Below, piece by piece: positions 1,863 through 19,440 of a stretch of DNA of 64,000 nt. Made by a program: the position numbers and the translations under genes. Every line of letters begins with the position of its first letter. Position 1 is the stretch's first letter. The stretch spans positions 1-64,000 of IMG/VR virus record IMGVR_UViG_3300013233_000151; one strand, written 5' to 3'. Source of the DNA: a virus. Under the pieces are notes generated by a model that was not told the origin of the DNA, ran no database searches, and saw only the letters and a program-made list of their open reading frames with translations.

Positions 1863-1880
1863 CACTTCGATTCGGAAGTG
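1863..1880. promoter_or_regulatory. Inverted repeat in divergent intergenic region
   Basis: CACTTC-N6-GAAGTG is a perfect 6-bp dyad lying between the reverse gene (start 1808) and the forward promoter at 1921. The position fits an operator for divergent transcription. The 1809-2003 gap holds nothing else but the promoter. Confidence 0.35.
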
Positions 1881-1920
1881 ACAATCTCAGATTCTTTGCG
1901 ATAGGGCGCTCAGCATGGCT

Positions 1921-1950
1921 GTAGACCGCCCCCCGGGCGAGCGGTACGCT
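1921..1950 (+). promoter_or_regulatory. Promoter-like GTAGAC-N18-TACGCT
   Basis: GTAGAC at 1921-1926, an 18-base spacer, then TACGCT at 1945-1950. It fits the repeated motif of this window (GTAGAC, 18-19 bases, TAnnnT) and lies 53 bases before the 1987-aa gene. The -10 half is the second-weakest match to TANACT among the seven. Confidence 0.5.
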
Positions 1951-2003
1951 ACGCGCACCCTTCAAGGCCCTTCGGCTCGGCTGTTCAGCCCCGAGGCGCG
2001 CAC

Positions 2004-5000
2004 ATGACGCATACGACTTTCGACAGAGCGATCCTCTCGATCCACTACGCGCACGAGATCACCCTTGGCTCGCCCATGTCACAGACGGTCGATCGTGCGC
2101 GCGGTGCGTTCGAGGGTCCGGTCGAGATCGTGTATGAGGTCGATGGCGGATATGTCGTGCAGGGCGCTTCTGAGGCCGTCTTCATGGGTGACGACGGTGA
2201 GGTGGCGCTCACCGACATCTACGAGTCGCTCGACGAGACGAAGACGCATGACATCATGCGCGGAGGTCTCGGTATCCCTCGCACACGGATGCCGCAGATC
2301 CGTTCAGACCTCGTGCCAGAGTTCCTCGCATACCTGCGCGAGAACGGCGTGACGGTGCGCAAGGGGCGCGCGGCCGTCGGCACGTTGAAGCCGACGCAGG
2401 ATAAGGTGTCGATGGAGAAAGCGGAGGCGCTCGCCACCTCCGCGCCCGAAGCGAAGCTACGACTACCCGTGATCGTGAGCAGCGATCGGCACATCCTCGA
2501 CGGGCACCACCGCTGGGCCGCGCTGTACATGAAGGGCATCGACGAACAGATCGGAACCTACTCGGTGTCGGTCCCGATCAAGAAGCTCCTAGAACTCGCG
2601 CGCGGATTCGGGAAGGTCGGATACAAGGAGCAAGGCGAAGCGATAGAGGACGACGAGACCGACGAAGGGATCAACGACCGCTACATCCTCAAGGCCGTCT
2701 TTATGACGGGCGGTGCGGGAGCGGGAAAGAGCTTCATCTCCGACATCATGTTCGGAGGCACTGGACTCAAAGTCGTGAACTCCGACGAACAGCTCGAACG
2801 CGCGATGAAAAAGGCCGGGCTCGATCTCAAGAAGGACATGGCGTCCTTGCAGGTGCAGGCTCAGGGCGGGCTGCGCGCTCAAGCCAAGGCGACTACCAAC
2901 AAGCGACTCGACCTGTACGTGAAGGGGCGTCTCGGCCTCATCATCGACAGCACGGCCGCGAATGTCGCGTCGGTCCAGAAGAAGGTCAAAGGTCTGCGCG
3001 CTCTTGGATACGACGTGTCGATGGTCTTCGTGAACACGTCACTGGAGACTGCACTCGCGCGCAATCAAGAGCGACCGCGCACCGTTCCGGTTCAGGTAGC
3101 GACGACCGACTGGAAGAAGGTGCAGGGAAACCTCAAGACGTACCGTGCGCTCTTCGGCAGCTCCAACTTCCGCGAGATCAAGAACGACGAGGTGCTGTCG
3201 CCGCGCGAAATCGTTGCGAAGCTAACCCCACAACTCACGAGGGCTGCGATGCCGCTACTGAACAAGCCCGTCCAGAACCCGATCGGGAAGCAGTGGGTGG
3301 AGGATCAGCGAACGCAGCGTGCACAGCAGCTTGCGGCGAGCATTGAGGGCGAGAGGACGATGCTTGTCGAAGATCTGTTCCTCGCGTTAGGTCTGTTGGG
3401 TTCGACCGTTGCTGGTGCTGTGCTGAGCAAGCTCGCCATTGGGGCAAAGCGCACAGTTGAGAAGGCGATACAGCTCCACAAACAGGGGAAGACGAGCGCG
3501 GCCGAACGGGCATTGCTCAAGCTAAGCGCTGACGACCGCCGACAAATCGAGGCACTGCTTAGCCCTACGGGCGTGAAGTCAATTCAACGCACAAACTTTC
3601 GATCACATCGTTCAATGAAACGACAGAGGAATTTCATGCACGAAGAGGCATTGGACGAGAAGGGTGTCGGCCGTACTGACCTTGTGAGGATGCTTGACGC
3701 ACGCACCAAGAAGCTTGAATGGGAGGGTCCGTTGCGTCAGTTTGCGAAGGACAACGCCGACACGCCCGATGTCGTGAAGCAGGTCACGCGCCTTCGTCCG
3801 GGTCAGTCGGTGAAGATTGGAGGCGGGGCGTCGACTGAGTTCATCATCGTGCGCGAGGGCATCGACGAGTACGACGTGGAGACGGATCGCATTCCTGACT
3901 TGGAGGGTCGCTGGCGGCGTATGGTCGAGGGCGAAGTTGTGCACATCACGGATACCGAGTGGGATGAACTGTCCGACCGAGCGCCGGAGGGGACGCGCAT
4001 TCGATCGAATGCCGACGACTCCATCACGGACTGCGAGCTGTACCTTGCTCGATATGCGCCGATTGATGAGTACACTGCGCTCGGAAACTTCGAGGTGCAG
4101 CAGCATCGTCGGGATACGCCGCGCGAGTCGCATTGGGTCGGAGGCAACTTGAAGTCCGCGAAGGCAAAGGCGAAGGAGCTGAGCAAGAGTGACGTAGGCA
4201 CTGCGTATGTCGTCAACACCGCGAAGGTGTCGCCCCGCACTGGTCGCTCGAAGCCCGTGGCGGCGTTCAGTCAGGGCAAGTCGATCACGCCCGAGCAGGC
4301 TGCTTTTGGTGAGTCGTACGAGGAAGGAGAGATGTCGCTCGTGGAGATCGAGTGCCTCCACATGGACGACCTCGCAGATGCCCTCCAGGTTGCGATTCAG
4401 CAGAATCCTTCGGACGTGCATCTCGTTGGAGAGCACTTCGGTCAGTTAGAGGCTGCGGTCGAAGACGGCAACTTCGAGAAGGCCGAGTTGATCTTCGAGC
4501 AGATCATCAAGGCGCTGCCGCTCGACGAGGCGACGCGCATGAGCACGCACGCGCGGATCAGTCGCGTGCGCAACGCACGGCGCGGCTCCACGAAGTCCAT
4601 GCAGTCGGGCGCGAAGAACCGAGGTCAGGTCAGGCAGGAGAACCGCAAGAAGCGAATCGCACGCCGCTCGTTACCCACGAGTCGCATGAAGGCGCAGCGC
4701 ATGAGCAACGTCAAGCGCAGCCTCAGCATCGCGCGCGAAGCTCTGGACGCTGGGTCCAGGAATCGGCTCGAAGAGGCCGCGTTGTACTGGACGCGGAGTG
4801 GCGGGCTGGCTGATTTCGGTGACGACGACGACGCCGGTAAGGCTGCCGCTGCTCAGCTCCACAAAGGGCTGTTGAAGCTCGGATTCGAGTACGCGCGGAG
4901 AGTCCCGGGCGGCGGTCGGCTCGGAGCCATGTATCAGTACCGCTCCGGCAACTTCGAGGTGGGTTGCAGTCAGCTCGTTCCTCCTCATACCGCGTCGGTG

Positions 5001-7967
5001 ATCGGTCGTGGTTCCAAGACGTATCGCACCGGAGTAACCGCGACCGAGCGTTCGCTCGTTCAAGATCGTGACAGTTTCGCTGGTCGCAATCCGGCGAACG
5101 TGGTGAAGAAGACGCTTGCGTGGTGTGCGTCTGCGGTGAAGACCTACACGGCGGAATCGGTAGAAGAGACGATTTTGGAGAACCCACGGTTCTCTGTTGG
5201 AAGGAGCGCAGATGCGTTCGTGGCTTTGCTCAAGCAGAAGTTGGATGTTCCGTTCGTGAAGGTTCGTATATCGACCATTACAGTACCGTCTGAGGCGCTG
5301 TTGATGGTCAGCCTATCGCTTGATCCTCAAAACGAGTGGGCCAATCGGGTCTATGAAAATTCTCGCTTCTTGAAGTTTAGTCTTAGTCGAGACGGTAGGT
5401 TGCACAACTTCGCAAGTTGGTCTCGAAAGGCAAACATGCGGAAGCAGCAGTACAAGACGCCGGAAGATGCGGTCAAGAAGATCAATGCCTTTATCCATAA
5501 AGCCCGCGAGATCGAGGAGTCGATCGACGAGGGCAACTTTGGCCGCCCTTCTAATTGGCGCGGAGGCATGGCGAAAGCCGGTGAGGCGTTCCAGGCGAAA
5601 GGGTCGGCCAAGACGAAGGCCCGCCTCATCGCAACGCAGCTCGTGCGCGTAGGTGGGGGCGATACGCCCGCGTTCCTGTCGAATGTGGCGAAGCTCTCGA
5701 AGTCCATGAAGGCCCTGAAATACAAGGGCTCGCCCGGCGAGGCATACGAGGTCGTCTACCGTGGGAAGGTGCTCGGTACACTTACGTCGTCCGGCGGCGG
5801 CATGTTCCCGTGGCACGGCGAGAACAAGGCGGGACAGCGGGTCGATGGCGTGGGCTACGGCTCGCTGCACCTCGGGGTCACGCGGATGCTATCTGCCGCG
5901 TTGGGGGATGCGTGGAAGGGGGCCGAGGAGTCGCTCGAAGAGTCACCGCTCGGTCGCGTCAAGCGGTTCCTGCGCGGATCGCACTACACAGCGACCCGTG
6001 AGGTGAATCTCCGGCGCGCGTCGGCCGGGACGGTGGCGGGTGCGCTTGGGATCACGATCAAGAAGGGTGACGACATCCTCGTGACTGGCGTGCAGGGCAA
6101 CGAGGTGAGCTTCACGCACAACGGCACGAAGGCGCGGATGACCAAGAAGGCGTTCTCCAGCTTTGAGCTTGTGGACGAGTCTTTCAAGTCGCAGCTCAAG
6201 TCGAAGAGCTTAGGAAATCCTGGTGAGCAACTTTGGCTCGTTAGATATCCCAATGGTGGCTTTGCAGGAACAGTCCGAGCTGACGATTCTAAACGGGCAG
6301 CTCATCTTGCGGATCAGGCGTTCGGCAGACGGCAGCGCGGGAAGATCGGTGGTCGTGGGAAACTGACACTTATAAAGGAACGCGATGCTTTACCGTCCTT
6401 TCGGAATCGAAAGTATCGTATGTCGTTGGAGTCGCTTGAAGAGAAAGCGCCCCCCGGGTTCGAGGGAACCGTCAAGGCCATGAAGGCCAAAGGGATGCCG
6501 AAGGAGAAAGCCTTCGCGCTCGCGTGGTCGATGTACAACAAGGGGAACAAGTCGCACCGCAAGGACGACGGCTCTCCCAAGGACGAGTCGGTGGATGATG
6601 TTCTCGACGAAAACGTGGGTCAGACGATCCTTCAACAGCTCGGAGGCCGTCGCTTTATCGCCATGACGGGCGCGAAGAACTTTGTCAACCTCAACACCAA
6701 GGAGTACGGGCGAGGTGGGCTCGCGTTCAAGATCGGGCGCAATGCGAAGGGCGTCACTCATGTCCGCATCGTGCTGACCGGCGCTGATCTCTACAGCATC
6801 GACTACCTCGCGGTGCGGGGCACGAGCGAGCCGAAGACCAAGGCCACGTCGAAGGGTGTCTATGCCGAGGATCTGCGCGCCGACTTCACGCGCAAGACTG
6901 GGCTCGCAACCTCGCTTGGCACGATGGGTGAGAGCACCGACGAGGACACGAATGCCCACGGCATGGAGTTCAACGAGCGGCAGCTCTTGAGCATGTACGA
7001 CGACGAGGACGAGGCGACGAAGGGCACGTTCGAGGAGTGGCGGGCCGCGAACTTCACGCAGCTCGACGAGATGAAAGAGATCTCGCTCTCCAGTAAACAG
7101 ATGGCGAAGGCGAAGCGCGTCGTGAAGAAGCACTACGGCATGAGCCGCTTGCCGTCCGAGGACGAGGTGATGGCCGAGATCCGCAACGTCCAACGCAAGC
7201 ACAAGCAGGGCAGCCTCGACGACCGTGGCGAGATGCTCATGGCGGCGTTCGAGATCACGAACGGTGGGGCGATTCGCTTCGAGTCCGTGGACGAGGCGAC
7301 CGGCATCGTGCTCACGGTCGAGCACTCCAAGAAGAACCGTGGTCTGTATCGCATGAAGATCAGCGGATCGGTCGGCAAGATTGGGATTCGCGGCGAGGTG
7401 CGTCCCTTTCACATGGGCATTGAGAAGGAGGCGACGCTTCGCATCGCGGAGCAGCTCACGACCGTCAACCGTTCGGACGGCGGTGGCAAGGAGATGCCGT
7501 TCGGGGCCAAGCGCAAGGTCATCGCGGCCGTGCACGCCAAGCTCCAAGAGATTCACGACAAGCACGAGTCCGTGGACGAGCACGACACGCAGTACAAGAG
7601 CGTGAACGACGCCGCCCACTACGATCCGGGCTATGGCAAGGGCTCGACCGAGATCTGGTACATGCGCGACGCAACTCAGTTCACGTACGGGATGGGAATG
7701 GACTTTCTGATTCGCCACGAGTCGGAATCGGTTCCCACGAAGGCGACGGTCGCCTCCACGCACAAGCTGATCGGCAAGATCAAGCAGTCAAGTCCTGAGC
7801 GCGTTTTCGGCATGATGCAGGGTGAGCGGTGGAGCCCGGACGGCGAAGCCCGTACGATGCTCACCAAGCTAGGCATTCACCACACGTCGATGAGCGTCGG
7901 GGACATCATCAAGACCGGGACCCGCGTGCTGTTCGTAGACCGCAACGGATTCACTCCGCTGAGCTGA
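2004..7967 (+). CDS. Giant polyprotein A: ParB-like and zeta-kinase-like modules, internal head protein candidate
   Basis: 1987 aa. Modules in order: a leader ending in ESLDE (74-78); a ParB/Srx-like segment with DGHHR at 166-170; a zeta-toxin-like P-loop kinase with GGAGAGKS at 236-243 and a Walker-B-like D315 in LIIDST; a hydrophobic helix near 457-480; then many small unknown segments. A PPGFEGTVKAMKAKG module near 1482 and a C-terminal HTSMSVGD domain also occur in other phage proteins. Segments are separated by (L/I/V)DE motifs, for example at 550-552, 620-622, 840-842, 1174-1176, 1534-1536, 1762-1764 and 1857-1859. These match the (L/I)xE cleavage rule of T4 gp21, whose homologue is encoded at 29628. 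I infer a polyprotein cut in the prohead. ATG 2004 is chosen; ATG 2076 is an alternative. Confidence 0.8.
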   Translation: MTHTTFDRAILSIHYAHEITLGSPMSQTVDRARGAFEGPVEIVYEVDGGYVVQGASEAVFMGDDGEVALTDIYESLDETKTHDIMRGGLGIPRTRMPQIRSDLVPEFLAYLRENGVTVRKGRAAVGTLKPTQDKVSMEKAEALATSAPEAKLRLPVIVSSDRHILDGHHRWAALYMKGIDEQIGTYSVSVPIKKLLELARGFGKVGYKEQGEAIEDDETDEGINDRYILKAVFMTGGAGAGKSFISDIMFGGTGLKVVNSDEQLERAMKKAGLDLKKDMASLQVQAQGGLRAQAKATTNKRLDLYVKGRLGLIIDSTAANVASVQKKVKGLRALGYDVSMVFVNTSLETALARNQERPRTVPVQVATTDWKKVQGNLKTYRALFGSSNFREIKNDEVLSPREIVAKLTPQLTRAAMPLLNKPVQNPIGKQWVEDQRTQRAQQLAASIEGERTMLVEDLFLALGLLGSTVAGAVLSKLAIGAKRTVEKAIQLHKQGKTSAAERALLKLSADDRRQIEALLSPTGVKSIQRTNFRSHRSMKRQRNFMHEEALDEKGVGRTDLVRMLDARTKKLEWEGPLRQFAKDNADTPDVVKQVTRLRPGQSVKIGGGASTEFIIVREGIDEYDVETDRIPDLEGRWRRMVEGEVVHITDTEWDELSDRAPEGTRIRSNADDSITDCELYLARYAPIDEYTALGNFEVQQHRRDTPRESHWVGGNLKSAKAKAKELSKSDVGTAYVVNTAKVSPRTGRSKPVAAFSQGKSITPEQAAFGESYEEGEMSLVEIECLHMDDLADALQVAIQQNPSDVHLVGEHFGQLEAAVEDGNFEKAELIFEQIIKALPLDEATRMSTHARISRVRNARRGSTKSMQSGAKNRGQVRQENRKKRIARRSLPTSRMKAQRMSNVKRSLSIAREALDAGSRNRLEEAALYWTRSGGLADFGDDDDAGKAAAAQLHKGLLKLGFEYARRVPGGGRLGAMYQYRSGNFEVGCSQLVPPHTASVIGRGSKTYRTGVTATERSLVQDRDSFAGRNPANVVKKTLAWCASAVKTYTAESVEETILENPRFSVGRSADAFVALLKQKLDVPFVKVRISTITVPSEALLMVSLSLDPQNEWANRVYENSRFLKFSLSRDGRLHNFASWSRKANMRKQQYKTPEDAVKKINAFIHKAREIEESIDEGNFGRPSNWRGGMAKAGEAFQAKGSAKTKARLIATQLVRVGGGDTPAFLSNVAKLSKSMKALKYKGSPGEAYEVVYRGKVLGTLTSSGGGMFPWHGENKAGQRVDGVGYGSLHLGVTRMLSAALGDAWKGAEESLEESPLGRVKRFLRGSHYTATREVNLRRASAGTVAGALGITIKKGDDILVTGVQGNEVSFTHNGTKARMTKKAFSSFELVDESFKSQLKSKSLGNPGEQLWLVRYPNGGFAGTVRADDSKRAAHLADQAFGRRQRGKIGGRGKLTLIKERDALPSFRNRKYRMSLESLEEKAPPGFEGTVKAMKAKGMPKEKAFALAWSMYNKGNKSHRKDDGSPKDESVDDVLDENVGQTILQQLGGRRFIAMTGAKNFVNLNTKEYGRGGLAFKIGRNAKGVTHVRIVLTGADLYSIDYLAVRGTSEPKTKATSKGVYAEDLRADFTRKTGLATSLGTMGESTDEDTNAHGMEFNERQLLSMYDDEDEATKGTFEEWRAANFTQLDEMKEISLSSKQMAKAKRVVKKHYGMSRLPSEDEVMAEIRNVQRKHKQGSLDDRGEMLMAAFEITNGGAIRFESVDEATGIVLTVEHSKKNRGLYRMKISGSVGKIGIRGEVRPFHMGIEKEATLRIAEQLTTVNRSDGGGKEMPFGAKRKVIAAVHAKLQEIHDKHESVDEHDTQYKSVNDAAHYDPGYGKGSTEIWYMRDATQFTYGMGMDFLIRHESESVPTKATVASTHKLIGKIKQSSPERVFGMMQGERWSPDGEARTMLTKLGIHHTSMSVGDIIKTGTRVLFVDRNGFTPLS
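4743..4759 (-). repeat. 17-bp dyad element, copy 2 (reverse orientation)
   Basis: CTGGACGCTGGGTCCAG, the exact reverse complement of copies 1 and 4. It lies inside polyprotein A, coding ALDAGSR. Confidence 0.75.
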
Positions 7968-7977
7968 GGACCAACCA

Positions 7978-10900
7978 ATGAAGAAGCAAACCACCGGCTC
8001 GGGCATGGCGGGCGAGATCGCCACCTACGTCATGCGCGGCAACCGCACGCCCTACGATCTCCGCCAGCATTTCCGCCTCACGCTCCCGGCGGCTCAGAAG
8101 ATCATGGATCAGTCCAACTACGCCTTCGGCCCGGGCGGAAAGGGCTACGCCTGGTACATGAAGCAGGTCGGCAACGTGCTCAAGGGCGGAAACGTGTTCG
8201 AGGCCACGAACGCACAGAGCATCGCCGCAGGTGCGTTGGGCGCGATGAATCGAGGCCGCGACGCGAGCGTTCAATTCATCAACGAGGGTGTGCCGGAGAC
8301 GCACCAGCGCAAGATCGCAGTCGCCACGCTCAAGATGAGCGCGATGGGCGCGAAGATCGCGGGCGGCATGGATCACGCCGGAGCCGTAGCGGTGCTCAAG
8401 GACGCGGGCTGGTCCCCCGCGAAGATCGCTGCCCAGCTCAAGAAGGCCGGACATGACGCGGCTGACATCAAGAAGTGGATGCACGAGTCGCTGGATGAGG
8501 ACGAGAAGGCCAACGCTCGGAAGATGAAGGCGAAGGGTTACCGCTTCATCATCGAGTTCCCGAACAACAAGCCCGCGCCGCTGTACGCGAAGACGCTCTC
8601 GATGGCGACCGAGATCATCAAGGACCACGGTGCGCCGAAGGGCGTCAAGGGTCAGCCGATCGACAAATTCCTCAACGAAGACTCTGAGGACGACGAGCTG
8701 GACGAGGCGCTCGGAGCGAAGGACAAGAAGGTGATCGCGGCGTTCACGGACAAGAAGCCGATGGACGGTCCGAAGCTCTCCACGGATGGCGAGACGCTCG
8801 ACTTCAACGGCATGGGCGGTCGCGGTGTTGCGTCGTGGTCGAACGGCAAGATCTACATGGGCGACACCGGCAGCACGCAAGACGATGCGGTGCACCGCGC
8901 GATTCGCAAGACCGCGCCGCGTAACTGGATCGGTGAGTCCACCGACGAAGCGAGCCCGTCCGTGCTCGGCGACAAGCTCAAGGCGATGTTCGACGCGGAG
9001 TATTCGCTCAACCACGGCAAGGGCAAGGACGCGGCTGCGTCGGTCAAGAAGGCTCTCGAAGCGAAGGTCAAGAAGCTCGCTTCCGAGCTGGGGAAGGTAG
9101 GCGGCTACAAGTATCTCGTGAGCCCCGCGCTGAACAACGCGCGCAAGGGCACGAGCTGGTCGAAGTTCGCGCGCAACATGGTCACGTCGAACCTCGACAT
9201 GGGCGAGTCGCTCGATGAAGCCGTCCAGGTCACGGCTGCGTACGCGCTGGCGAACATGAAGCGCGGCGATCGCGTCGAGCTTTCGACGCCGCAGTCGGGC
9301 AACCAGACGCGCAAAGGCAAGGCCGTGATGCGCGGACCCCACGGATGGGCGGTCGATCTTGGAGGCAAGCATGGCACGCCCGGCGTTGCCACCGAACGCA
9401 ACCTCATCAAGTGGAAGGCTCACCCGGTTGTGAGCGAGGCGAGGGGAGCGGGTAAAGGTGAGTTGGCAGGTAGGCGCATCGGCGTCGGCACCGTCAAGAA
9501 GTCAGCGAGTGGTGCGAAGGATAGGGCCTCTGCTAAGCGCATCGTCGAGGGCGTGCTTGGAATTCAAGACCGTGCACACGCACGACAGCTTGGGATCGAC
9601 GAGAGCGTCTTGGGTCGTGCGAACGGTCTGCCGACTGCGCTGCGCAAGTATTCGCACGCGCTCCCCAAAGGTCTTGGTAAGCCGCAGAAGTACGAGACGC
9701 GAGACGGCGTGAAGGAGGGCTACTACCTCACACTCACCGACAACAAGCGCGGGCTATCCAATCGTCCCGGTTCGTCGAGCGGCAGCCTCACCGCCGTCTT
9801 CACGGTCGAGAACCTGCTCAGTCAGTTCAAGAAGGCGGAGGGTGAGCACGGTCAGCACGGTCACACGACGTTGACTTTCAAGAAGGGCGAGGGCAAGGCT
9901 CCGAAGATTGTTGAAGCCCGTCTCTCGGGCGGCAGCGGAGGCAGTTCCAAGAAGGCGTCACGCAAGGATGATCCCGAAGCCGCAGGTTCGAGTAGGTTCG
10001 CTGCTCAGGGCGTCGGAAAGAAGGCCAAGCGTGAGAGCGACCACGGCGAGCACCACAGCAACTACGAGTCTGTGGAAGAGGCCAAGGGAGACCCGGTGCG
10101 GCTCAAGGTCATAAGCGCCGTTCGTGTTTCGTCCGTGGTTCCCGGAGCGACGGCGGGGGTCACGCTTCAAGATCAGACGGTTCTTTTTCGATCGACCGAT
10201 TACGACGGGCGTGGTGGTGTGACGGGTCCGTTTGTCCTCGTGGACTCGACGGACGCGATGTTCGCGGTGCTGAACTTCGGATGGAACGTCGGTTTTGAGG
10301 AAGAGCGCGGTCTCAACAAGAAGGCCCACGCTGCGATGCGTAGGAATGCGGCGCGGGCGTTCAAGCAGTTCTTGAAACGGACCAACGAATCCAACGACGA
10401 CAACACCGACGACCTCTCCGCCAAGAAGGAGTCGGGTCTCAAGGCCAAGGCGAAGGAGATGGGAGCCATCAAGGTCTCGGGCAAGGGTCCTAGCGTGAAC
10501 GCCACCTTCAAGGACAAGGCCACGGCCGAGAAGTTCTATCGGCACGCCAAGACGGTCGGCAAGGCGTCGATGCGCCGCAGTGGCGACACCGAGTTCACGA
10601 TCAGCATCGACGAGTCCGAGGACTGCCCGGAGATCGTGGACATCGGCGATGGTCGCTACTACATCGAAGGCGTCGGCATGTGTGAGTCGCTCGATGAGGC
10701 GCAGGGTCATCTGCTGCTCGATGAGGACGTGCTCGACGAGATGAAGAAGTCCAAAGGACACGTCGCATTCCTGGGTGACTTCGAGTACGTGATCGTGAAC
10801 GGCGGCGAGGGCATGGTGCTGGGACGCGCCCCGACCTCCAATGCCTTCGACCAGACGGGTAACCGTCACGCGCGTTTCGAGGCCCCGGCGTGGCAGGCCG

Positions 10901-13900
10901 AGCAAGCGATGAAGCTCGCGTTCAGTGGCTTTCGGCAGAAGGTCGATCCGAAGGCGATGCAGAGGCTCAAGCGATTGCTCAAAGAAGACGTGGACGAAGG
11001 CGCGGAGACGCTGCGCGTCAAGATCCTCGACATCTTCGACAATGGTGAAGATTTTCATCCGCGCTACACCGTCAACATCGAGACCAACAACCGCGACATA
11101 TACACGTTTGGGATGTTCGAGCCCGGCACCGAGCCCGACTCACAACAGGGGAACGCGGTGGTGTCGAACTTCACCAACTTCCTCAAGGGTGGAGCGCGTC
11201 GCGGCGAGCACGCGATGAAGGTGTCGATGAAGCGTCTCCCGGCTTCGCTGCGCGGTCAGCTCGAAACGCTCATCGCCGACCCGAGCCCTTGGTGGGGAGA
11301 TCTGGAGTACGACGAAGATCTCGACGAGATGGGGCAGATTTACAGGATCGGAGCTGGGGGCCTCAAGCCCATCGACACCACGATCTTTCTCGCTCCCAAC
11401 TCGTCCTATTACCTCGGTGCGTCCACCACCCCACATCACATTGTCGTGACGGCGGTGTCGGATTCGCAGATTACATATTGTCAGTATCCGTACACGACAT
11501 CGCAGCGAATCGAGACGGAGATCGGCAAAGATCTGATTGCGCAAGGCACGAGCCGTTACATGAAGACGTACGCTGCCTATCTTGACCCCAAGCAGAAGGC
11601 GACGTGGGTGGCGAATCTCAAAGGCAAGAAGGGTCCTTTGAACGGCAAGCAGCCCGTCAAGGGCTTCCAGCGGGTGCTCGTTACCTGCGTCGCCAACGCG
11701 AAGACGCGCGATCTATACGGTCAGACGAAGAGCTATGGCGTCCTGACCGACTACTGGCAGAGTGGTAAGCCCGGTGCGAAGGGCGACAACGCCAGTAAGG
11801 AAACGAGCGTCATCAAGGTCGCGCGCAATATGGTCCCGGCCATGAAGTCGAGCGGTGACTTCGATATCGTGACGGTCGGTCGCAAAGTTGTGGAGTCGGA
11901 CGAGGATTACTGCGATTGGATCGACGAGAACGGTATCGACGAGTTCACGAGCGCCGCCATCCCGGCCATCGGCACCATGCACCCGTGGGTCAGTCCCTAC
12001 GGGAGCGAGATGTCGCTGATCGGTGGAGCCGATGACCTGGAGGACGACGAGGACGCAGACAACGAGTTCGCGCTCGACGAGAACGGAAACTTCGAGCTAG
12101 TAGATGAGGCCAAGTCCTCCAAGTTCTCGGTCAAGTGCCTGGAGTGCGGCAAGAAGTTCAAGACCGCCTCGATGAGCCCGACCTGTCCGAAGTGCAAGGG
12201 CTCCGACATCGAGCCCGACTACGACGCGCCCCGTCGTCGGAAGCGCAACGAGGACGTGGAAGACGAACTCGACGAATCCGTCAAGCCAACCGTCGAGGGC
12301 TTTCATTTTATCCTCACGGGTGCGCTGACTCAGTACGACGTGCAGCAGATGGCGCGTGCGGCGAAGAAGAGAGGCGGCTATCACAACGCGAATGCGTTAG
12401 GTCTGTACTTTCAAGCGTTAGAGCGGGCCGAGAAGGATCCGAAGATGCGCGGTGTCAAGAAGACATCTTCGGATCACGAGGATTTGCGTAAGCTCATCGC
12501 GGTGCTCTCAGATTACTTCGATCCGCATTTCCCTCCGATCAAGAAGACGATCAAGCAGATCCAAGCTTTCATCGACTCCGGAAAGCTTCCCAAGTACCCG
12601 ACGCCTCCCAAGAAGCGCAAGATCTCGGATAGCATCGAGATCCCAGAGGTCGATGAGGCGTGGCCGGTGCGTGGTACGGGCGGCGCGGGTGGCGGCAAGC
12701 CTAACCTCAAGGCAGAACGCAAGGGGCCTCGCGGGCAGGGAACCGACGATTTTGAATTCGCGGACGAGGATCTCGACGAAGGCTCGTCGCTCCACGACGC
12801 GCTCATCGCACTGTTCGTCAGCAATCGAGGACGCGCCTACACGGCGAGCACCATCGCCAAGCTCCAAACGGTCAGCCTCGCGGAAGCGATGCGGACGCTC
12901 ACGGTGCTGGTCCGAGAGGGCACGCTCCGGTTCAAGCGCGGCGAGGGCTATTCGCTACGCGGCAACCCTAACGCACTCAGGGTCGCGGGAGCTTCGGAGC
13001 CCAAGGCACCGCTGTCCTCTCGGCTCTACAATCAGCGTACGAACAGCTCGCCCGCGTCCATGCGCGAGGACGTGGATGAGGCTGTCGATCCGCTCAAGGC
13101 GTTCAAGGGACGCCCTCGTGACTGGACAGCAAAGCAGAACCGCGACGCTGTGGAGATGCTTTCTGGGTGGTCTCTCAAGAAGCTGCGTAAGCACCAAGAC
13201 CTGAACAAACGACAGATCGTCACAGCACATCGACAGGGGAATACCGAGGCGCTGGAGAATCTGCAAGCGATGGAGAACGTTTACATCGGTGCGATTATGC
13301 GGCGGGAGGTCGGAGAGTCCGTGGACGAGGATAGTTCTTCGAGCGGCACGCTCTACACGGGAACCGGGCGCACCGGACCCGCTGGGCCGAAGCTCCCTCG
13401 GCATCTTACGGCGTCCGACTTCTCGAAGGGTGACGCGGGCGGTAACGGCCCCGTGAACCACGAGCAGCTTAGAGGCCCGGCCCCGGATGCCAAGCGCAGC
13501 GCGATGGTGTTTGCCGAGGACGACGAAGACGACGTGGACGAAGGGTTGGGTCGGAAGGTCTTTTACACAGCGGACGGTATCGGCAAAGCGAAGTACATCG
13601 TCAACTTTCACGACGGGAAGAAGTCGCATGGCGACGGCAGCCCGTTCTACGACATCGCCATCTTTGCGAGCAAAGCCAAGCGTGCGACGAAGGTGAAGGA
13701 GCTGCTGAAACAGGGATACAAAGAGGTCAGTTCGGCGGTTCACGAGACCACTACGTCTGGTGGCGTCGGAGGCTTCTCCAGTGAGCCGATCGGCAGCTAC
13801 CCGGAGAACTGTGGTCGCACCGGAGGCATCCGTGATGACAGCAAGAAGAAGAAGGGGCCTCGCTCCGTCTTCGACAACGGAGCGATCGGTCGCGTGCTCG

Positions 13901-15489
13901 AACAGATGCGCGAGTCCATGCCGGGTAAGACGGACGAGGAGCTTATGGAGCTTCTCGATCTGGACGAAGGCGGCGAGCGTTTCAAGAAGCTGGAGAAGGA
14001 GATCGCTGCCAAGGGCGACGTGCGAGATCCCGGCGCGGTCGCGGCGGCGATCGGACGCAAGAAGTACGGCAAGAAGAAGTTTCAGAAGATGGCCGCTAAG
14101 GGCCGCGCGGAATCGACGGACGAGACGGGCACGTTGGAGATGACCGTCTACGCGAAGTCGAAGCGTGGACCTTGGGTCACGCTGGATCCCTACGGCGAAG
14201 AGGTTGAGTACCCGAACAAGCAAGAAGCGGTCGCGGCTGCGCGGGAGAAGGCTTCGGTCGAGAACTACGGGTTCGTGTACCGCGACGGCAAGGTGGCGAA
14301 AGAGGATGTGGGTGAGGCGATCGACGAAGCCGCGAAGAAGCTCAAGGTCGGCAAGGCTCCGAAGCTCGTGCAGGACACGCTGCGCAGCCTCATGCACAAG
14401 GTCACGTACGAGAAGGGCCGCTTCCTGACTGGCGACATCGTGCGCATGGACAAGGCCAAGAAGGAGGCGGTGATCCAGTGGGCTGTCGGCATGAACGATC
14501 CGCAGATGATGGAGCCGGGGACTATCGACGGTCACATCGAGCGACTCGCCAAGCGTCTCGTCGAGTCGGTCGCGGACAACAAGCGTCCCGTCAGCCTCAA
14601 CCCTGTCGAGCGCGCACTCCTGAGCGCCATTCGGATCGAGCGAGGAAAGCACGGCATCGAGGAGTTGATCGCAACCGACCGATTCCTACAGTCAGTCCCG
14701 TATGCGGACGTGTTGGTGGCGGCTGATAATCTCTCCACCCTCGGGCTCGTGGGTGGGAACGGACGTGGGATTATGACCACGTTCGGAGAGGGCGAAGACG
14801 GCGTGGACGAAGTGGAGTTTCGTACCCTTCGCTATCCCTACAAGGTCGAGACGGCCGTGGGGGCGCATGGTCAGCTCAACGGCGTGCGTTTCTACGAGGA
14901 CGACGCGCAGGCCAAGGCCGACATGCAGAAGCTCGTAAAGCGTGAAGGTCTCGGCAAGGTCACGCTCGTCAAGCGCATGACCGCAGCGGAAGCCAAAGCC
15001 GCACACGTCCCGTACCCGAACGAGTCCGAGGATCCTGGACCCGGTGTCCAGGATGAGCTGGTTGAGGCGGTCTTGAAGACCGGCAACCCGAGCGTGCCGA
15101 GGATCGGCTACGAGCAGGGGCGCTACTGGTATTCGACCGGCGGTGCTAAGAACGGACCCGCTGTCCCACCCTCGAAGCGCAAGGACCGTAGCTTCGCGCG
15201 CGAGAAGTTTCGCCACATGCTTAGTAACGAAGCTGGCGGCGGAATGGGCCAAGCGGCTGCCTCGAAGCTGATCGACAAGCTCGATGCGATGATTCCTGAG
15301 GACGCGGAGGAGACTGGCCCGCGCGAGCCCCTTCAGTTCCCCGAGTCCGCACTCGAACGCTACGTCTTGGCCGCTCAGGCGGCTGGGATTGACGAGGACG
15401 ACCCTTGTTTTGTCTTCGAGGACGGCATCTTCACGGTGGAGGTGCCCGCTGAAATGGCTCCGCGTCTGCGTGAGCTGGTCGGGGTGTAG
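7978..15489 (+). CDS. Giant polyprotein B (2503 aa), internal head protein candidate
   Basis: GAGG eight bases upstream supports ATG 7978, ten bases after polyprotein A. The protein is a chain of 60-150-residue segments divided by ES(L/V/T)DE or (L/I/V)DE motifs. Motif ends are near residues 174, 243, 324, 414, 907, 1007, 1117, 1322, 1433, 1601, 1701, 1784, 1855, 1997, 2049, 2117 and 2278. The next residue is usually Ala or Gly, as at T4 gp21 cut sites. Recognisable pieces are a CxxC-CxxC zinc ribbon (C1387, C1390, C1403, C1406) and a winged-helix-like segment just after 1601 (SLHDALIALF). The rest is unknown, Lys-rich and soluble. A virion-internal polyprotein is inferred. A cytoplasmic multidomain protein is the alternative. 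Confidence 0.8.
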   Translation: MKKQTTGSGMAGEIATYVMRGNRTPYDLRQHFRLTLPAAQKIMDQSNYAFGPGGKGYAWYMKQVGNVLKGGNVFEATNAQSIAAGALGAMNRGRDASVQFINEGVPETHQRKIAVATLKMSAMGAKIAGGMDHAGAVAVLKDAGWSPAKIAAQLKKAGHDAADIKKWMHESLDEDEKANARKMKAKGYRFIIEFPNNKPAPLYAKTLSMATEIIKDHGAPKGVKGQPIDKFLNEDSEDDELDEALGAKDKKVIAAFTDKKPMDGPKLSTDGETLDFNGMGGRGVASWSNGKIYMGDTGSTQDDAVHRAIRKTAPRNWIGESTDEASPSVLGDKLKAMFDAEYSLNHGKGKDAAASVKKALEAKVKKLASELGKVGGYKYLVSPALNNARKGTSWSKFARNMVTSNLDMGESLDEAVQVTAAYALANMKRGDRVELSTPQSGNQTRKGKAVMRGPHGWAVDLGGKHGTPGVATERNLIKWKAHPVVSEARGAGKGELAGRRIGVGTVKKSASGAKDRASAKRIVEGVLGIQDRAHARQLGIDESVLGRANGLPTALRKYSHALPKGLGKPQKYETRDGVKEGYYLTLTDNKRGLSNRPGSSSGSLTAVFTVENLLSQFKKAEGEHGQHGHTTLTFKKGEGKAPKIVEARLSGGSGGSSKKASRKDDPEAAGSSRFAAQGVGKKAKRESDHGEHHSNYESVEEAKGDPVRLKVISAVRVSSVVPGATAGVTLQDQTVLFRSTDYDGRGGVTGPFVLVDSTDAMFAVLNFGWNVGFEEERGLNKKAHAAMRRNAARAFKQFLKRTNESNDDNTDDLSAKKESGLKAKAKEMGAIKVSGKGPSVNATFKDKATAEKFYRHAKTVGKASMRRSGDTEFTISIDESEDCPEIVDIGDGRYYIEGVGMCESLDEAQGHLLLDEDVLDEMKKSKGHVAFLGDFEYVIVNGGEGMVLGRAPTSNAFDQTGNRHARFEAPAWQAEQAMKLAFSGFRQKVDPKAMQRLKRLLKEDVDEGAETLRVKILDIFDNGEDFHPRYTVNIETNNRDIYTFGMFEPGTEPDSQQGNAVVSNFTNFLKGGARRGEHAMKVSMKRLPASLRGQLETLIADPSPWWGDLEYDEDLDEMGQIYRIGAGGLKPIDTTIFLAPNSSYYLGASTTPHHIVVTAVSDSQITYCQYPYTTSQRIETEIGKDLIAQGTSRYMKTYAAYLDPKQKATWVANLKGKKGPLNGKQPVKGFQRVLVTCVANAKTRDLYGQTKSYGVLTDYWQSGKPGAKGDNASKETSVIKVARNMVPAMKSSGDFDIVTVGRKVVESDEDYCDWIDENGIDEFTSAAIPAIGTMHPWVSPYGSEMSLIGGADDLEDDEDADNEFALDENGNFELVDEAKSSKFSVKCLECGKKFKTASMSPTCPKCKGSDIEPDYDAPRRRKRNEDVEDELDESVKPTVEGFHFILTGALTQYDVQQMARAAKKRGGYHNANALGLYFQALERAEKDPKMRGVKKTSSDHEDLRKLIAVLSDYFDPHFPPIKKTIKQIQAFIDSGKLPKYPTPPKKRKISDSIEIPEVDEAWPVRGTGGAGGGKPNLKAERKGPRGQGTDDFEFADEDLDEGSSLHDALIALFVSNRGRAYTASTIAKLQTVSLAEAMRTLTVLVREGTLRFKRGEGYSLRGNPNALRVAGASEPKAPLSSRLYNQRTNSSPASMREDVDEAVDPLKAFKGRPRDWTAKQNRDAVEMLSGWSLKKLRKHQDLNKRQIVTAHRQGNTEALENLQAMENVYIGAIMRREVGESVDEDSSSSGTLYTGTGRTGPAGPKLPRHLTASDFSKGDAGGNGPVNHEQLRGPAPDAKRSAMVFAEDDEDDVDEGLGRKVFYTADGIGKAKYIVNFHDGKKSHGDGSPFYDIAIFASKAKRATKVKELLKQGYKEVSSAVHETTTSGGVGGFSSEPIGSYPENCGRTGGIRDDSKKKKGPRSVFDNGAIGRVLEQMRESMPGKTDEELMELLDLDEGGERFKKLEKEIAAKGDVRDPGAVAAAIGRKKYGKKKFQKMAAKGRAESTDETGTLEMTVYAKSKRGPWVTLDPYGEEVEYPNKQEAVAAAREKASVENYGFVYRDGKVAKEDVGEAIDEAAKKLKVGKAPKLVQDTLRSLMHKVTYEKGRFLTGDIVRMDKAKKEAVIQWAVGMNDPQMMEPGTIDGHIERLAKRLVESVADNKRPVSLNPVERALLSAIRIERGKHGIEELIATDRFLQSVPYADVLVAADNLSTLGLVGGNGRGIMTTFGEGEDGVDEVEFRTLRYPYKVETAVGAHGQLNGVRFYEDDAQAKADMQKLVKREGLGKVTLVKRMTAAEAKAAHVPYPNESEDPGPGVQDELVEAVLKTGNPSVPRIGYEQGRYWYSTGGAKNGPAVPPSKRKDRSFAREKFRHMLSNEAGGGMGQAAASKLIDKLDAMIPEDAEETGPREPLQFPESALERYVLAAQAAGIDEDDPCFVFEDGIFTVEVPAEMAPRLRELVGV
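15035..15051 (+). repeat. 17-bp dyad element, copy 3
   Basis: CTGGACCCGGTGTCCAG, with the dyad extended to 9-bp arms (ATCCTGGAC/GTCCAGGAT). It lies inside polyprotein B. Confidence 0.75.
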
Positions 15490-15516
15490 ACAGACACCCT
15501 CACATTCTTCTACCAT
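15486..15516 (+). promoter_or_regulatory. Promoter-like GTAGAC-N19-TACCAT
   Basis: GTAGAC at 15486-15491 contains the stop codon of polyprotein B. After 19 bases comes TACCAT at 15511-15516, 46 bases before the next ATG. The -10 half is the weakest match of the seven. Confidence 0.45.
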
Positions 15517-15523
15517 CACGACC

Positions 15524-15541
15524 CTGGACAGCACGTCCTAG
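15524..15541. repeat. Degenerate dyad element
   Basis: CTGGAC-N5-GTCCTAG differs from the five 17-bp dyads by one inserted base in the right arm. It is the only such element directly in a leader, 22 bases before the ATG of the 570-aa gene. Confidence 0.35.
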
Positions 15542-15562
15542 ACATACTCCTGGAGCCAAGCC

Positions 15563-17275
15563 ATGCCGATCGAACTGAAACCCAAGTCCTCTGTGCGCGA
15601 GGCCGCCCCTGAAGAGACTCAAGGGCTCATGCTGTTCAACGAGGACGGTGAGCTGACTCTCGCGGGAGAGACCATCGCGGACTTTCTGTCCACCGCCGAC
15701 TTCTCGGCCATCACCGAGTCGGAAGCAGCCTTGCCATTCCTCTCCAACCCCGCCGCTTGCGCCGACGATCCCTACGCGATCGACGAAGCCAAGAAGAAGA
15801 AGTCCAAGAAGAAGTCCAAGAAGGACGACATGGACATGGCCTACGAGGACAGTGAGGAGGAGGAAGAGGGTTTCGACGAAGCCAAGAAGAAGAAAAAGAA
15901 GAAGGCCGGGAAGGACTCGGACGGCGACTACGACGAGAGCCCTCCGGGCGAGATGGGTGAGGGCGACGCCGCCGACGATGAGGAGATCGCGGAGGTCGCG
16001 CTGCCCGGCGTGGTCGCGGCACGTCTCGTCGATGCGACGGACCTGACCGAGATGTTCGGCTACTATCTCGACCAACTGTCCTGGGTCGATGAGCCGAGCC
16101 TGCAAGAGCAGGCCACGCTGGCCGTGTTCGCGGACTACCGTGACGAAGATGGCGGCATCGCTGAGGACCGGCGTGAGGAAGTCGCTGCGCTTCTGACCTC
16201 TGTTCTCTCCGAGGGTGTCGTGTACGACGCCGCCGAGGAGATCTCCGAGAGGATCCTGACCAAGGGTCAGCGTCGCAAGGCGACGAGGATCCGCAACAAG
16301 CCCAAGTCGGGCAAGCGTCGTGCGGAACTCAGGCTCCGCCGTCGCGTCGAGGGTCGCGGCGCGAAGAAGCAGAAGATCGCGCGGCAGCACAAGATGCGTA
16401 ACCGAAGGAAGGTAGCGCGCATCGCGCAGCTCGCGCGCGAGAGCGAAGAGGGCACGCTGGTCTTCGGTCTCGGTGAGGGCATCAACGGAGCGAACTTCAA
16501 GATCGGTCTCGTGGAGGATCCGAACCTGGAGTTCACATCCGAGCAGCTCATCGAGTTCGATGCGTTGGGCGGCAACATCTTCGAGTGCCCGGACTGCTAC
16601 CACACCGCGCCCTACTTCGCATTCATCGACGAGATGAAGAAGAAGTCCAAGAAGAAGAAGTCCAAGAAGGACGACATGGACATGGCCGACGAAGCCAAGA
16701 AGAAGAAAAAGAAGAAGGCCGGGAAGGACTCGGACGGCGACTACGACGAGAGCCCTTCGGGTGAGATGGGTGAGGGCGTCGAAGAGATGACGGCTGGCGG
16801 ACCGCCCAAGGTCGGTATGATCGTCAAGTACGACGGCCCTCGCACGGTCAAGCGTCACGAGGGCGACGACGGCATCATCACGAAGATCTCGGGCAAGCGT
16901 ATATCGGTGAAGTGGGATCGTGGCACGACCGTCCACACCGTCGATGATCTCTACCTGACAGGCGAGTACGACGAGTCGATCGGTGAGGGCGCGTGCCCGG
17001 AGTGCGGCTGCGTCATCGAGTCCATGCTCGACGAGAAGGGCAAGGTCCCGCCCGCCTTCCTCAAGCACATGAAGGGCAAGAAAAAGGACGACGACGAAGG
17101 CATGAAGAAGGACATGAAGAAGAAGAAGGACGAATCGGTCGCTCCGTCGCACGTCCCCGGTGCCTTCGCGGTCGCGGCCGGTCGTCCCAACCTTTCCGAA
17201 GGACACAGCCTCGCGGCGGCGACGCTCGGCGTCCTGGGCGGGCGGAAGTCGGTCCTGACCGAAGACGAGGACTGA
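15563..17275 (+). CDS. Polyprotein C: lysine/acidic repeat protein with zinc-finger-like ends
   Basis: 570 aa from ATG 15563, with TGGAG nine bases upstream. It alternates basic runs (KKKSKK, KKKKKKK) with acidic runs (DDMDMA, EEEEE) and carries two copies of the same block (DNA repeat below). Other parts are a strongly basic RNA- or DNA-binding-like stretch (RRKATRIRNKPKSGKRR), CPDC and CPECGC cysteine pairs, and a KOW/SH3-like segment (VGMIVKYDG...ISVKWDRG). DEAKKKK, IDEMKKK and YDES motifs continue the pattern of the neighbouring polyproteins. T4 also packs small basic and acidic core proteins beside its protease, so an internal core or scaffold component is a reasonable inference. Confidence 0.75.
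   Translation: MPIELKPKSSVREAAPEETQGLMLFNEDGELTLAGETIADFLSTADFSAITESEAALPFLSNPAACADDPYAIDEAKKKKSKKKSKKDDMDMAYEDSEEEEEGFDEAKKKKKKKAGKDSDGDYDESPPGEMGEGDAADDEEIAEVALPGVVAARLVDATDLTEMFGYYLDQLSWVDEPSLQEQATLAVFADYRDEDGGIAEDRREEVAALLTSVLSEGVVYDAAEEISERILTKGQRRKATRIRNKPKSGKRRAELRLRRRVEGRGAKKQKIARQHKMRNRRKVARIAQLARESEEGTLVFGLGEGINGANFKIGLVEDPNLEFTSEQLIEFDALGGNIFECPDCYHTAPYFAFIDEMKKKSKKKKSKKDDMDMADEAKKKKKKKAGKDSDGDYDESPSGEMGEGVEEMTAGGPPKVGMIVKYDGPRTVKRHEGDDGIITKISGKRISVKWDRGTTVHTVDDLYLTGEYDESIGEGACPECGCVIESMLDEKGKVPPAFLKHMKGKKKDDDEGMKKDMKKKKDESVAPSHVPGAFAVAAGRPNLSEGHSLAAATLGVLGGRKSVLTEDED
15875..15965 (+). repeat. 91-bp direct repeat, copy 1
   Basis: Encodes DEAKKKKKKKAGKDSDGDY followed by DESPPGEMGEG. 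It matches 16688-16778 with two base differences. Confidence 0.85.
16688..16778 (+). repeat. 91-bp direct repeat, copy 2
   Basis: Second copy, 813 bases downstream of the first (271 codons, in frame). The upstream SKKDDMDMA stretch is also duplicated, but the YEDSEEEEE insert of copy 1 is absent. Confidence 0.85.
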
Positions 17276-17291
17276 GCCCACAACGAGCAAC

Positions 17292-17313
17292 GGCTGGGTA
17301 ACCAGCCTTCTTT
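17292..17313 (+). terminator. Possible terminator hairpin
   Basis: GGCTGG-GTAA-CCAGCC followed by TTCTTT, 17 bases after the stop of polyprotein C. The stem is 6 bp and the T tract is interrupted. Confidence 0.5.
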
Positions 17314-17324
17314 GCGCCATGCTC

Positions 17325-17354
17325 GGAGCCCTCGCTTTCGCCAGCGGGGGCTCC
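17325..17354 (+). terminator. Strong hairpin upstream of a TATACT
   Basis: GGAGCCC pairs with GGGCTCC, and inside it CGCT pairs with AGCG around TTCGCC, giving about 12 bp. There is no T run. A TATACT follows at 17360-17365, just before the next ATG. It may be a second terminator or a regulatory hairpin. Confidence 0.45.
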
Positions 17355-17368
17355 TCTCATATACTGCG

Positions 17369-17797
17369 ATGACCATGAGCGGACCCCAACACGTACTGCC
17401 CCCGGCGAGCACGACCAAGGTGGACCTGCGATCGCAGGCCGCCGGGTTCTTCGCGCAACGTCGTCGAGGCGCGAACGTCCATGAGGCGGCTCCGCCCCCG
17501 AAGGCCCGCAAGGCCCCACAGGGCCTCTACGACGACCCTGAGCCGGTCATCATCGCTGAGGCTTCCCAGAAGGCCCCTGAGCCCACCCAGCTCCCCGAGG
17601 CGTCAGAGCAGCGATACACGCTCGCGCAGCTCGTGGAGAAGATTCAGCAGCGTAGGGGGGCGCGTCAGGCGATCGTGGCGTCGGGAGACCCGGACGGCCC
17701 GGACGACACAGGTTGGGATCCAGGAGACCTCAAGATGCCCAAGCGGGGCGCGACGCTCGCGGCTGGGGTCCTCGCTTACCAGCGGAGGCAGCGGTGA
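17369..17797 (+). CDS. Unknown Pro/Ala/Arg-rich protein (142 aa)
   Basis: Starts are ATG 17369 or ATG 17375, both directly behind TATACT (17360-17365), with no Shine-Dalgarno site. The product is Pro/Ala-rich and basic (QRRRGANVHEAAPPPK..., ending AYQRRQR) and probably largely disordered. It overlaps the next gene as GTGA, which ties it to the polyprotein group. I do not recognise a family. Confidence 0.6.
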   Translation: MTMSGPQHVLPPASTTKVDLRSQAAGFFAQRRRGANVHEAAPPPKARKAPQGLYDDPEPVIIAEASQKAPEPTQLPEASEQRYTLAQLVEKIQQRRGARQAIVASGDPDGPDDTGWDPGDLKMPKRGATLAAGVLAYQRRQR

Positions 17798-19440
17798 GGC
17801 TCGTCGAGTACCTGTTCGGGGACCCCGGAGGACCGCCGCAGCCCGACTACGGCTACAGCACGATGGCCGTGGACGGTGAAGGGCTGAACGGTCTGGAGAC
17901 GCGCACCGAGCACCCGAGCGAGTACGGGTACGGCACGCCCGGCGTCGCGCACATGGATGGACGCCCGATCCCTCACCTCGCGCGTCCGTACGACCAAGGT
18001 ACGGCGATGCGTTACCGCGCCATGCTCGGCTTCCACGAGTCGATCGACGAAGCGGCGACGTGGAAGCGTGAGAGAGCGGGGCGGTACATATCCTCAGACG
18101 GTTGGATAGTGGAACAGTTTCAGGGGACGCTGCATCCGCGTTGGGGGGTTTGGCCTCCAGGTAGTGATACAGCGATAGACGAGCACGTTCTGTATGGGCG
18201 CACATTGCGAGAGGCGAAAGCAGCGGCGGACCGTGAGTCCAATGATGAGTCGATCGACGAGGTACGGATAGCCACCGACAAATGGCGCATCAACTACGGC
18301 CAAGGTCAGGTATCGCGTACGTTCAAGACGCGCAAGGATGTGAAGCGTGCATTTGGTCAGTTAGCGCAGCATCGGGCGGGGCGGAAGGGCGCGTTCATCG
18401 AGTGGTTTGACTACGCAACTGCTGACCAGGGAGACGGCGATTGGATCCCGCTGCGTGAGTCGATCGACGAGGTGCTCAAGAAGGGCGAGAACGTCCAGAG
18501 CGCCGGTGACAACAAGGCGATTGCTCGACTGGAGAAGGGCGCGTACCCCGCGAGAGCCGAGGACGGCATGGGCTTCTGCTTTCAGTGGGCGGACGGACGC
18601 GGCATCTGCGCGTTTAGGTTGAAGGCCGATGCGCTGCGCTGGGCTAAAGAGCAGCCGCGCGACATCGTGAAGTTCTGGTACGGCGAGCCCGTGCACTCGA
18701 ACGGCAAGTTCCGCATTCGGGTCGTGGACCACTACAGCAAAGAAGAGAGCTTGGACGAGACGTGGGCCTCGGACATCAAGAAGCTCAAGATGGCGAAGGA
18801 CGATGAAGCGATCCCGACCATGTGGAAGCTCGAAGCGCGCTTGCGTGCGTCGGGACACTTGCATGATGGGCTCAGCCTCACTTTCTTCTGCCCCGTCTAC
18901 TTCGCCGGTCAGATGATCGTCGAGGCGTTGCTAGATAAGACGGACGAGAACGGCGAACTGCTTGTCTTCTCGTTGCCCTCCATCACAGACCCGGAGCGCA
19001 TTCAGATCGGACTTGCGCAGATGCTCAGCCTCGGCATCAAGGACCCGGAGCGTCATCTCAAGCGGATCAAAAAGGGCAAGGACAAGGGCAAGCTGGCGTT
19101 GCGCTGCTACTCGATGCTTCCAGGTATCGAGGGCGTGGGGTCGGCCATCAACTACGCGCACATCGGACAAGAGGCCGTTCAGCTCGGCGCGTTCATGCTC
19201 GTGCCGGACGAGTGGGTAAACGAGGGCGATCCCTACAACAAGAGCTATCGCTTCCCGGGTGAGGTCGGCTACAGCCCGTACTGGCGAATCCCTCCGTTCA
19301 ACGAGATGCGGAAGATCCGTCCGAAGCTCGCGGCTGACTTTCTCAAGGGCGGCACCGTGAGGAGACCGGGAACTGTCAAGAACGAGTCGATAACGAAGTT
19401 CAGCGAGTTGCTGAACGAGCGATCCGGCAGTCTTTCGTGA
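17794..19440 (+). CDS. Polyprotein D with four ES(I/L)DE sites
   Basis: 548 aa from GTG 17794, which overlaps the previous TGA. Four near-identical sites, ESIDE at 82-86, 152-156, 222-226 and ESLDE at 318-322, cut the chain into pieces of about 70, 70, 96 and 226 residues. Three are almost identical in DNA (GAGTCGATCGACGA). The last piece is globular (FFCPVYFAGQMIVEALL...) with no known motif. Three of the four sites are followed by Ala, Val, Val; the fourth by Thr. It is the last member of the polyprotein block. A C-terminal NESITKFSELLNE looks like the peptide tails of other phage internal proteins. Confidence 0.75.
   Translation: MRLVEYLFGDPGGPPQPDYGYSTMAVDGEGLNGLETRTEHPSEYGYGTPGVAHMDGRPIPHLARPYDQGTAMRYRAMLGFHESIDEAATWKRERAGRYISSDGWIVEQFQGTLHPRWGVWPPGSDTAIDEHVLYGRTLREAKAAADRESNDESIDEVRIATDKWRINYGQGQVSRTFKTRKDVKRAFGQLAQHRAGRKGAFIEWFDYATADQGDGDWIPLRESIDEVLKKGENVQSAGDNKAIARLEKGAYPARAEDGMGFCFQWADGRGICAFRLKADALRWAKEQPRDIVKFWYGEPVHSNGKFRIRVVDHYSKEESLDETWASDIKKLKMAKDDEAIPTMWKLEARLRASGHLHDGLSLTFFCPVYFAGQMIVEALLDKTDENGELLVFSLPSITDPERIQIGLAQMLSLGIKDPERHLKRIKKGKDKGKLALRCYSMLPGIEGVGSAINYAHIGQEAVQLGAFMLVPDEWVNEGDPYNKSYRFPGEVGYSPYWRIPPFNEMRKIRPKLAADFLKGGTVRRPGTVKNESITKFSELLNERSGSLS

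Follow-up and report, generated by a model that had tools for sequence, protein, structure and literature searches.

Candidate polyproteins of internal head proteins, bounded by prohead protease motifs, in a T4-type virus

The window analysed here is the first 64000 bases of the 71961-base IMG/VR virus record IMGVR_UViG_3300013233_000151, in which four long open reading frames (ORFs) encode proteins referred to below as A, B, C and D. We interpret A, B and D, perhaps along with C, as polyproteins that the prohead protease of the phage processes into internal head proteins, which are probably injected. The probability of this reading is roughly 0.85; cleavage and packaging are the parts of it that we infer. 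The first-pass annotation had taken all four proteins for cleaved polyproteins of this kind, and the claim is supported for A, B and D by motif-bounded modules, by a motif shared with the capsid protein and by LxE leaders on homologues, while for C the case is weak. Comparisons were made with two related genomes, G002 (156 kb; ORFs G2a of 2325 amino acids (aa) and G2b of 2620 aa) and G001 (ORFs G1b of 1656 aa and G1d). In motifs, an arrow marks the predicted cut.

2004-7967, + strand: putative polyprotein A of 1987 aa, divided into some 17 segments of at least 40 aa; blocks colinear but shuffled in G2a/G2b
7978-15489, + strand: putative polyprotein B of 2503 aa, divided into some 22 segments of at least 40 aa; relatives G1b and G2b
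15563-17275, + strand: protein C, 570 aa, Lys-rich/acidic repeats; weak candidate for a protease substrate or core protein
17713 or 17794 to 19440, + strand: putative polyprotein D, 575 aa (TTG start) or 548 aa, about 6 segments, with 4 ESxDE and 5 [LIV]DE motifs; relative G1d

About 50 segments of at least 40 aa were counted across the chains, many of them basic. The repeat of protein C (15563-17275) is Lys-rich/acidic and present in two copies, DE↓AKKKKKKKAGKDSDGDYDESPxGEMGEG.

Enrichment of the motif

Together, A-D (5638 aa) contain 45 [LIV]DE and 15 ES[LIVT]DE motifs, against 12 and 0 in 39 other genes of the window (12983 aa; the protease and the major capsid protein were excluded from this set), and the difference is significant for both patterns (P = 4e-14 for [LIV]DE, P = 2e-8 for ES[LIVT]DE). 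The density of [LIV]DE/ESxDE in A, B and D was about 9-fold that of the other window genes; an unspecific control, [LIV][^D]E, was similarly frequent in both sets (1.28 vs 1.17 per 100 aa). The [LIV]DE motif occurred 12 times in A versus 1.5 in shuffled sequences, 24 versus 2.1 in B and 5 versus 0.5 in D. Dipeptide-preserving shuffles equalled the observed count in 0 of 500 cases for A and for B and in 9 of 500 for D. Thus the description of the long proteins as motif-rich stands for A, B and D, against both shuffles and other genes, and for C it does not, that protein being marginal. These same comparisons rejected a chance origin of the motif. An origin as a DNA repeat was likewise rejected: the codons differ from site to site (CTCGACGAG, ATCGACGAA and GTGGATGAG among others), and the motif is therefore not a DNA repeat.

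The segments between motifs have a median length of 83 aa (interquartile range 56-128). The earlier remark that Ala or Gly often follows the motif was borne out, with either residue at the position after the cut (P1') in 18 of 51 sites in A-D. When ES-type sites of the window and of related polyproteins were pooled, P1', which the motif leaves free, was Ala in 26 of 60 (P = 4e-11). A scan of 476 ORFs longer than 500 aa, drawn from all loci, placed almost only protease-scaffold fusions and the present polyproteins at the top for [LIVM]xE[AGST] enrichment.

Modules between the motifs and their exchange among relatives

The modules recognised in A and B are as follows.

2004-2237, + strand: A 1-78, acidic leader ending in ESLDE↓, conserved with the N-termini of G2a and G6b
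2238-2666, + strand: A 79-221, ParB-like module (DdrB/DarB-type), ESLDE↓...ETDE↓; phrog_2859
2667-3362, + strand: A 222-453, AAA_33/zeta-toxin-like P-loop kinase module; Pfam AAA_33, E 1.6e-12
5169-5531, + strand: A 1056-1176, module that aligns with nearly all of phrog_3308 (5-87 of 88)
5532-5942, + strand: A 1177-1313, module found in G2b at 52% identity, ending in ESIDE↓/ESLEE↓
6444-6611, + strand: A 1481-1536, small module (KAPPGF...) that recurs in G6a (78%) and in G2a
6612-6944, + strand: A 1537-1647, module corresponding to phrog_9437 in its entirety (3-98 of 98), E 8e-20
9220-9603, + strand: B 415-542, module placed some 1800 residues later in G2b; the aligned stretch begins at ESLDE in B (410) and at ESIDE in G2b (2197)
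10081-10614, + strand: B 702-879, conserved module, at 80% in G1b (over the C-terminal half) and at 55% in G2b
11329-11928, + strand: B 1118-1317, 200-aa module, present motif to motif in G1b; G2b has another module here
12109-12276, + strand: B 1378-1433, zinc-ribbon module, cleanly absent here in G1b and G2b, elsewhere in G2b
12781-13080, + strand: B 1602-1701, winged-helix-like module (weak Rrf2 match), conserved in G1b and G2b
13969-14124, + strand: B 1998-2049, basic 52-aa module with 69-79% identity to small free-standing ORFs in loci L002-L007

Segments of A, B and D recur in G002 and G001 at about 40-80% identity and in different orders. The ParB-like and AAA_33 modules adjoin in A (joint at ETDE↓221) and are about 420 residues apart in G2a, where a D-type module lies between them; a segment of G1d, the relative of D, also occurs inside G2a. 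The stretch A 1159-1312 was located in G2b, B 410-478 lies at G2b 2197-2272 and the zinc ribbon of B lies at G2b 1052-1099. Alignments often start exactly at the first residue of ESxDE: 31% of 184 alignment ends fell within 5 residues of a motif versus 9% expected, a proportion reached in 0 of 3000 rotations, and two control patterns were weaker. At the zinc-ribbon junction of B the sequence runs GNFELVDE↓, then the 56-aa module ending in DELDE↓, then SVKPT; the same junction without the ribbon is uninterrupted in both relatives (GNVEILTE↓AVHPT in G1b, GNIEPIDE↓AIQPT in G2b). A small fold was predicted for this ribbon, with a predicted local distance difference test (pLDDT) score of 56-68.

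Domain boundaries that cross the motifs would have spoken against processing at these sites. Because the boundaries coincide with motifs wherever segments are shuffled, gained, lost or free-standing, this outcome has been tested, and it was not seen apart from single chance motifs. Exchange of motif-bounded modules between phages as cassettes is the best explanation of these sequence patterns. Further ESxDE polyproteins are present in G003 and G006, and a tblastn search of B against named phages gave no match.

The acidic leader of A is a candidate targeting propeptide. A targeting element common to the protease N-terminus and the polyprotein leaders was plausible by eye; a profile search gave no significant similarity, and it was set aside.

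Prohead protease and capsid protein

About 10-12 kb downstream of A-D lie a head maturation protease gene and a Gp23-type capsid gene, followed by sheath, tube and baseplate genes.

29604-31205, + strand: gp21-family prohead protease, S77 domain at about 29913-30329; H153, S207/S208; phrog_207
about 31249-32751, + strand: Gp23-family major capsid protein; Pfam PF07068, 159 bits; phrog_138
31477-31488, + strand: predicted capsid propeptide cleavage site SLDE↓; all 22 capsid proteins that extend over the site have [LI][DN]E↓

A gp21-like protease had been announced at 29628. The protease is real, and its ORF starts at 29604. It matches Pfam PF03420 (Peptidase_S77, the T4 gp21 family) with 55 bits at a cut-off of 27, and its profile retrieves the T4 structure PDB 5jbl (E 2.3e-12). 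The catalytic residues of T4 gp21, H85 and S140, aligned to H153 and S207 respectively (or, for S140, to the next serine in the HMMER alignment), and the histidine at the H153 position is invariant in 22 of 22 relatives. The ORF runs on into a coiled-coil, scaffold-like C-terminal region that is rich in LxE. Protease and scaffold-like region form a single ORF here and in the relatives examined (L008-L027); T4 genes 21 and 22 are separate neighbours.

The predicted cleavage site of the capsid protein falls after the propeptide and before the Gp23 fold begins, and reads [LI]NE in four relatives and [LI]DE otherwise. The predicted propeptide boundary is thus marked by the same motif as the polyproteins. 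T4 gp21 cleaves after L/I-x-E (PMC9026906).

Free-standing homologues and their leaders

Units between motifs occur elsewhere as complete free-standing proteins. Counterparts of the ParB-like module A 79-221 are whole proteins, 133-150 aa long, encoded by Aeromonas phage 65, Vi01, Menlow, and Dickeya and Stenotrophomonas phages, and such proteins occur in Straboviridae, Ackermannviridae and others. The homologue in Dickeya phage LIMEstone1 (ORF101; 30% identity, E 2e-21) is annotated as a confirmed structural protein, and the mass spectrometry study of that phage lists a 17.31-kDa unknown structural protein (PMC3296691), the ORF numbers of record and paper differing by one. Counterparts of the kinase module A 222-453 are proteins of 220-222 aa in HTVC008M and Melnitz.

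The 80 IMG/VR loci with an AAA_33 module represent 65 distinct contexts. In 65 of 65, [LIVM]xE stands directly before the first Gly of the module; at neighbouring positions the count was 0-5. Most of these contexts have short N-terminal leaders, such as MKTFDQIRYQDLTE↓G and MKSFEQILSE↓G. Free-standing ParB-like modules begin MKTFRQFLKE↓D or MKTFRSFINE↓Q, and T4 IPII and IPIII start MKTYQEFIAE↓A.

Another virus (L082, 2808-10868) has a 2687-aa ORF with repeated ESLGE↓ sites followed by A or G and an AAA_33 module; from its sequence it appears to be a second, differently tagged polyprotein. The Pelagibacter phage HTVC008M (L063) has a gene run at 1185-8544 whose products start with short leaders ending in LSE↓A, LVE↓D and LKE↓G; this run is a candidate cluster of T4-type internal head proteins.

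Neighbouring genes

Between the polyproteins and the head genes lie two ParB-methyltransferase fusion genes (19888-21138 and 23882-25126; phrog_498) and a MazG-like gene (25557-26276). A 370-aa ORF at 26286-27398 matches, at residues 3-105, phrog_2859, to which the ParB-like module belongs as well. The match stops just ahead of AGEVDE↓107, and this protein is possibly a further cut substrate. A homing endonuclease gene (GIY-YIG/HNH type) lies at 50903-51613, among the tail genes.

Discussion

Each chain can be described as a series of modules that are small and for the most part basic (ParB-like, AAA_33/zeta-like kinase, zinc ribbon, winged helix and many unassigned ones), with acidic linkers between them whose last residues are [E-S]-[LIV]-D-E↓(A). 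Under the favoured explanation they would be incorporated into the prohead core alongside the scaffold and cut after [LIV]DE by the gp21-family protease during capsid maturation; the capsid propeptide and the scaffold domain of the protease itself are its other predicted targets. The released segments would then stay packed with the DNA and probably be injected at infection. A single leader may target the whole chain, with the LxE sites between modules freeing the cargo. The targeting role of the leader, cleavage, packaging and injection are all deduced rather than observed steps.

This organisation is a variant of the T4 internal-protein system (IPI, IPII, IPIII and Alt, whose targeting sequences are cut by gp21) and is conceptually related to polyvalent proteins. 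It shares with T4 a gp21-family protease, the L/I-x-E motif and a Gp23 capsid protein, along with small basic proteins that would lie in the head interior, and free-standing homologues of two modules have T4-like leaders (MKTFDQIRYQDLTE↓G and MKTFRQFLKE↓D against MKTYQEFIAE↓A). In T4, however, every protein is encoded by a gene of its own and has a single leader and one or two cuts, whereas here there are tens of modules per chain, and the conserved 78-aa leader of A is of another type. In phiKZ and SPN3US (gp175/gp245), a protease distantly akin to gp21 cuts ejection proteins after S/A-x-E; there it mainly removes N-terminal propeptides, sometimes with several cuts, and does not turn one chain into many proteins (PMC10052503). 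The 778-aa gp053 of Agrobacterium jumbo phage Atu_ph07 (phrog_12810) also combines an AAA_33 module with candidate sites (VTE↓GVND, LTE↓LFDT, LNE↓LFDT), but it is smaller and has another motif, and no report of its processing was found in the text consulted; many of the genes clustered around it encode virion proteins (PMC6102473).

Polyvalent proteins (Iyer et al. 2017, PMC5512222) come close to the chains described here, being multidomain, mosaic and apparently injected, and the analogy with RNA-virus polyproteins has already been made for them (PMC5512222). The chains could be such proteins, left uncleaved or partly cleaved: giant multidomain effectors packaged and injected whole, with the motif as a mere flexible linker. 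Like polyvalent proteins, which unite disparate domains including a DdrB-like ParB and are injected (PMC5512222), they join ParB-like, AAA_33, zinc-ribbon and winged-helix domains, and the ParB-like module is found in giant ORFs of other phages, one of them verified in the virion by mass spectrometry. We nevertheless consider this unlikely. The supposed linker matches the phage's own predicted capsid cleavage site, down to the preference for E↓A, and the same LxE is found in free-standing homologues as part of a leader that can be removed. The processing of polyvalent proteins is ascribed to embedded peptidases (a metallopeptidase or a C-terminal assemblin-like one), whereas a separate prohead protease and regular inter-module sites are implicated here; no HExxH metallopeptidase motif, the commonest though not an obligatory polyvalent hub, was found in A-D.

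The chains might also be scaffold or core proteins, like T4 gp22, gp67 and gp68, cut mainly for removal, with folded modules incidental. T4 core proteins do receive many gp21 cuts and mostly leave the head (PMC9026906), protease-scaffold fusions show the same LxE enrichment, and C resembles the core type more. This, too, is improbable: the modules are conserved domains of folded type with enzyme families and virion-protein homologues, the protease ORF already has a scaffold-like region, and segments of 80-200 aa would hardly escape. It is slightly less credible still that the motif is mainly a repeated capsid-targeting tag that binds scaffold. Targeting and cleavage do lie within the same 10 residues in T4 (PMC9026906), yet the targeting half there precedes the cut, at residues 4 and 7. 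At ESxDE sites no conserved position was found ahead of the five motif residues; what recurs is therefore the cleavage half alone.

Several observations weigh against processing of the chains into internal head proteins. C has no ESxDE and only 4 [LIV]DE, a number that dipeptide-preserving shuffles equalled in 34 of 500 cases; because of these counts C is weakly supported as a polyprotein or substrate and may be cargo or core. A few motifs sit within intact domains, for example at A residue 181 in the ParB-like domain, and the cut sites may be any LxE or [LIV]DE only. The fused AAA_33 ORFs of L095, L102, L104 and L108 have no clear motif excess, and fusion without cleavage may therefore also occur. 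AlphaFold prediction of B 1003-1601 from three sequences was poor (mean pLDDT 39.7). The model resolved only the zinc ribbon and the next helical module, both between motif sites, and does not serve as main evidence. Finally, no proteomics of this phage or its relatives was found in the accessible literature.

As far as we found, the polyprotein strategy, familiar from RNA viruses, is apparently unreported for phage head proteins: the open-access literature, subscription journals being outside our search, yielded no case of head cargo made as multi-module polyproteins and cut by a prohead protease. We lean, by a little, towards the broader proposal that a lineage of DNA phages, and independently others (L082 with ESLGE↓; Atu_ph07 with LxE↓LFDT), make their head cargo in the manner of RNA viruses. 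One or a few chains would give about 40-50 packaged and injected proteins at a constant ratio, with the protease sites as the borders of cassettes for swapping effectors between phages.

If processing occurs as proposed, a T4-type phage would load dozens of proteins per single targeting event, in fixed ratios and as exchangeable cassettes. The protease motif would then act as a decoder that splits the giant 'hypothetical proteins' of phage genomes into candidate injected effectors, and what T4-like phages inject would become a list that can be checked by mass spectrometry.

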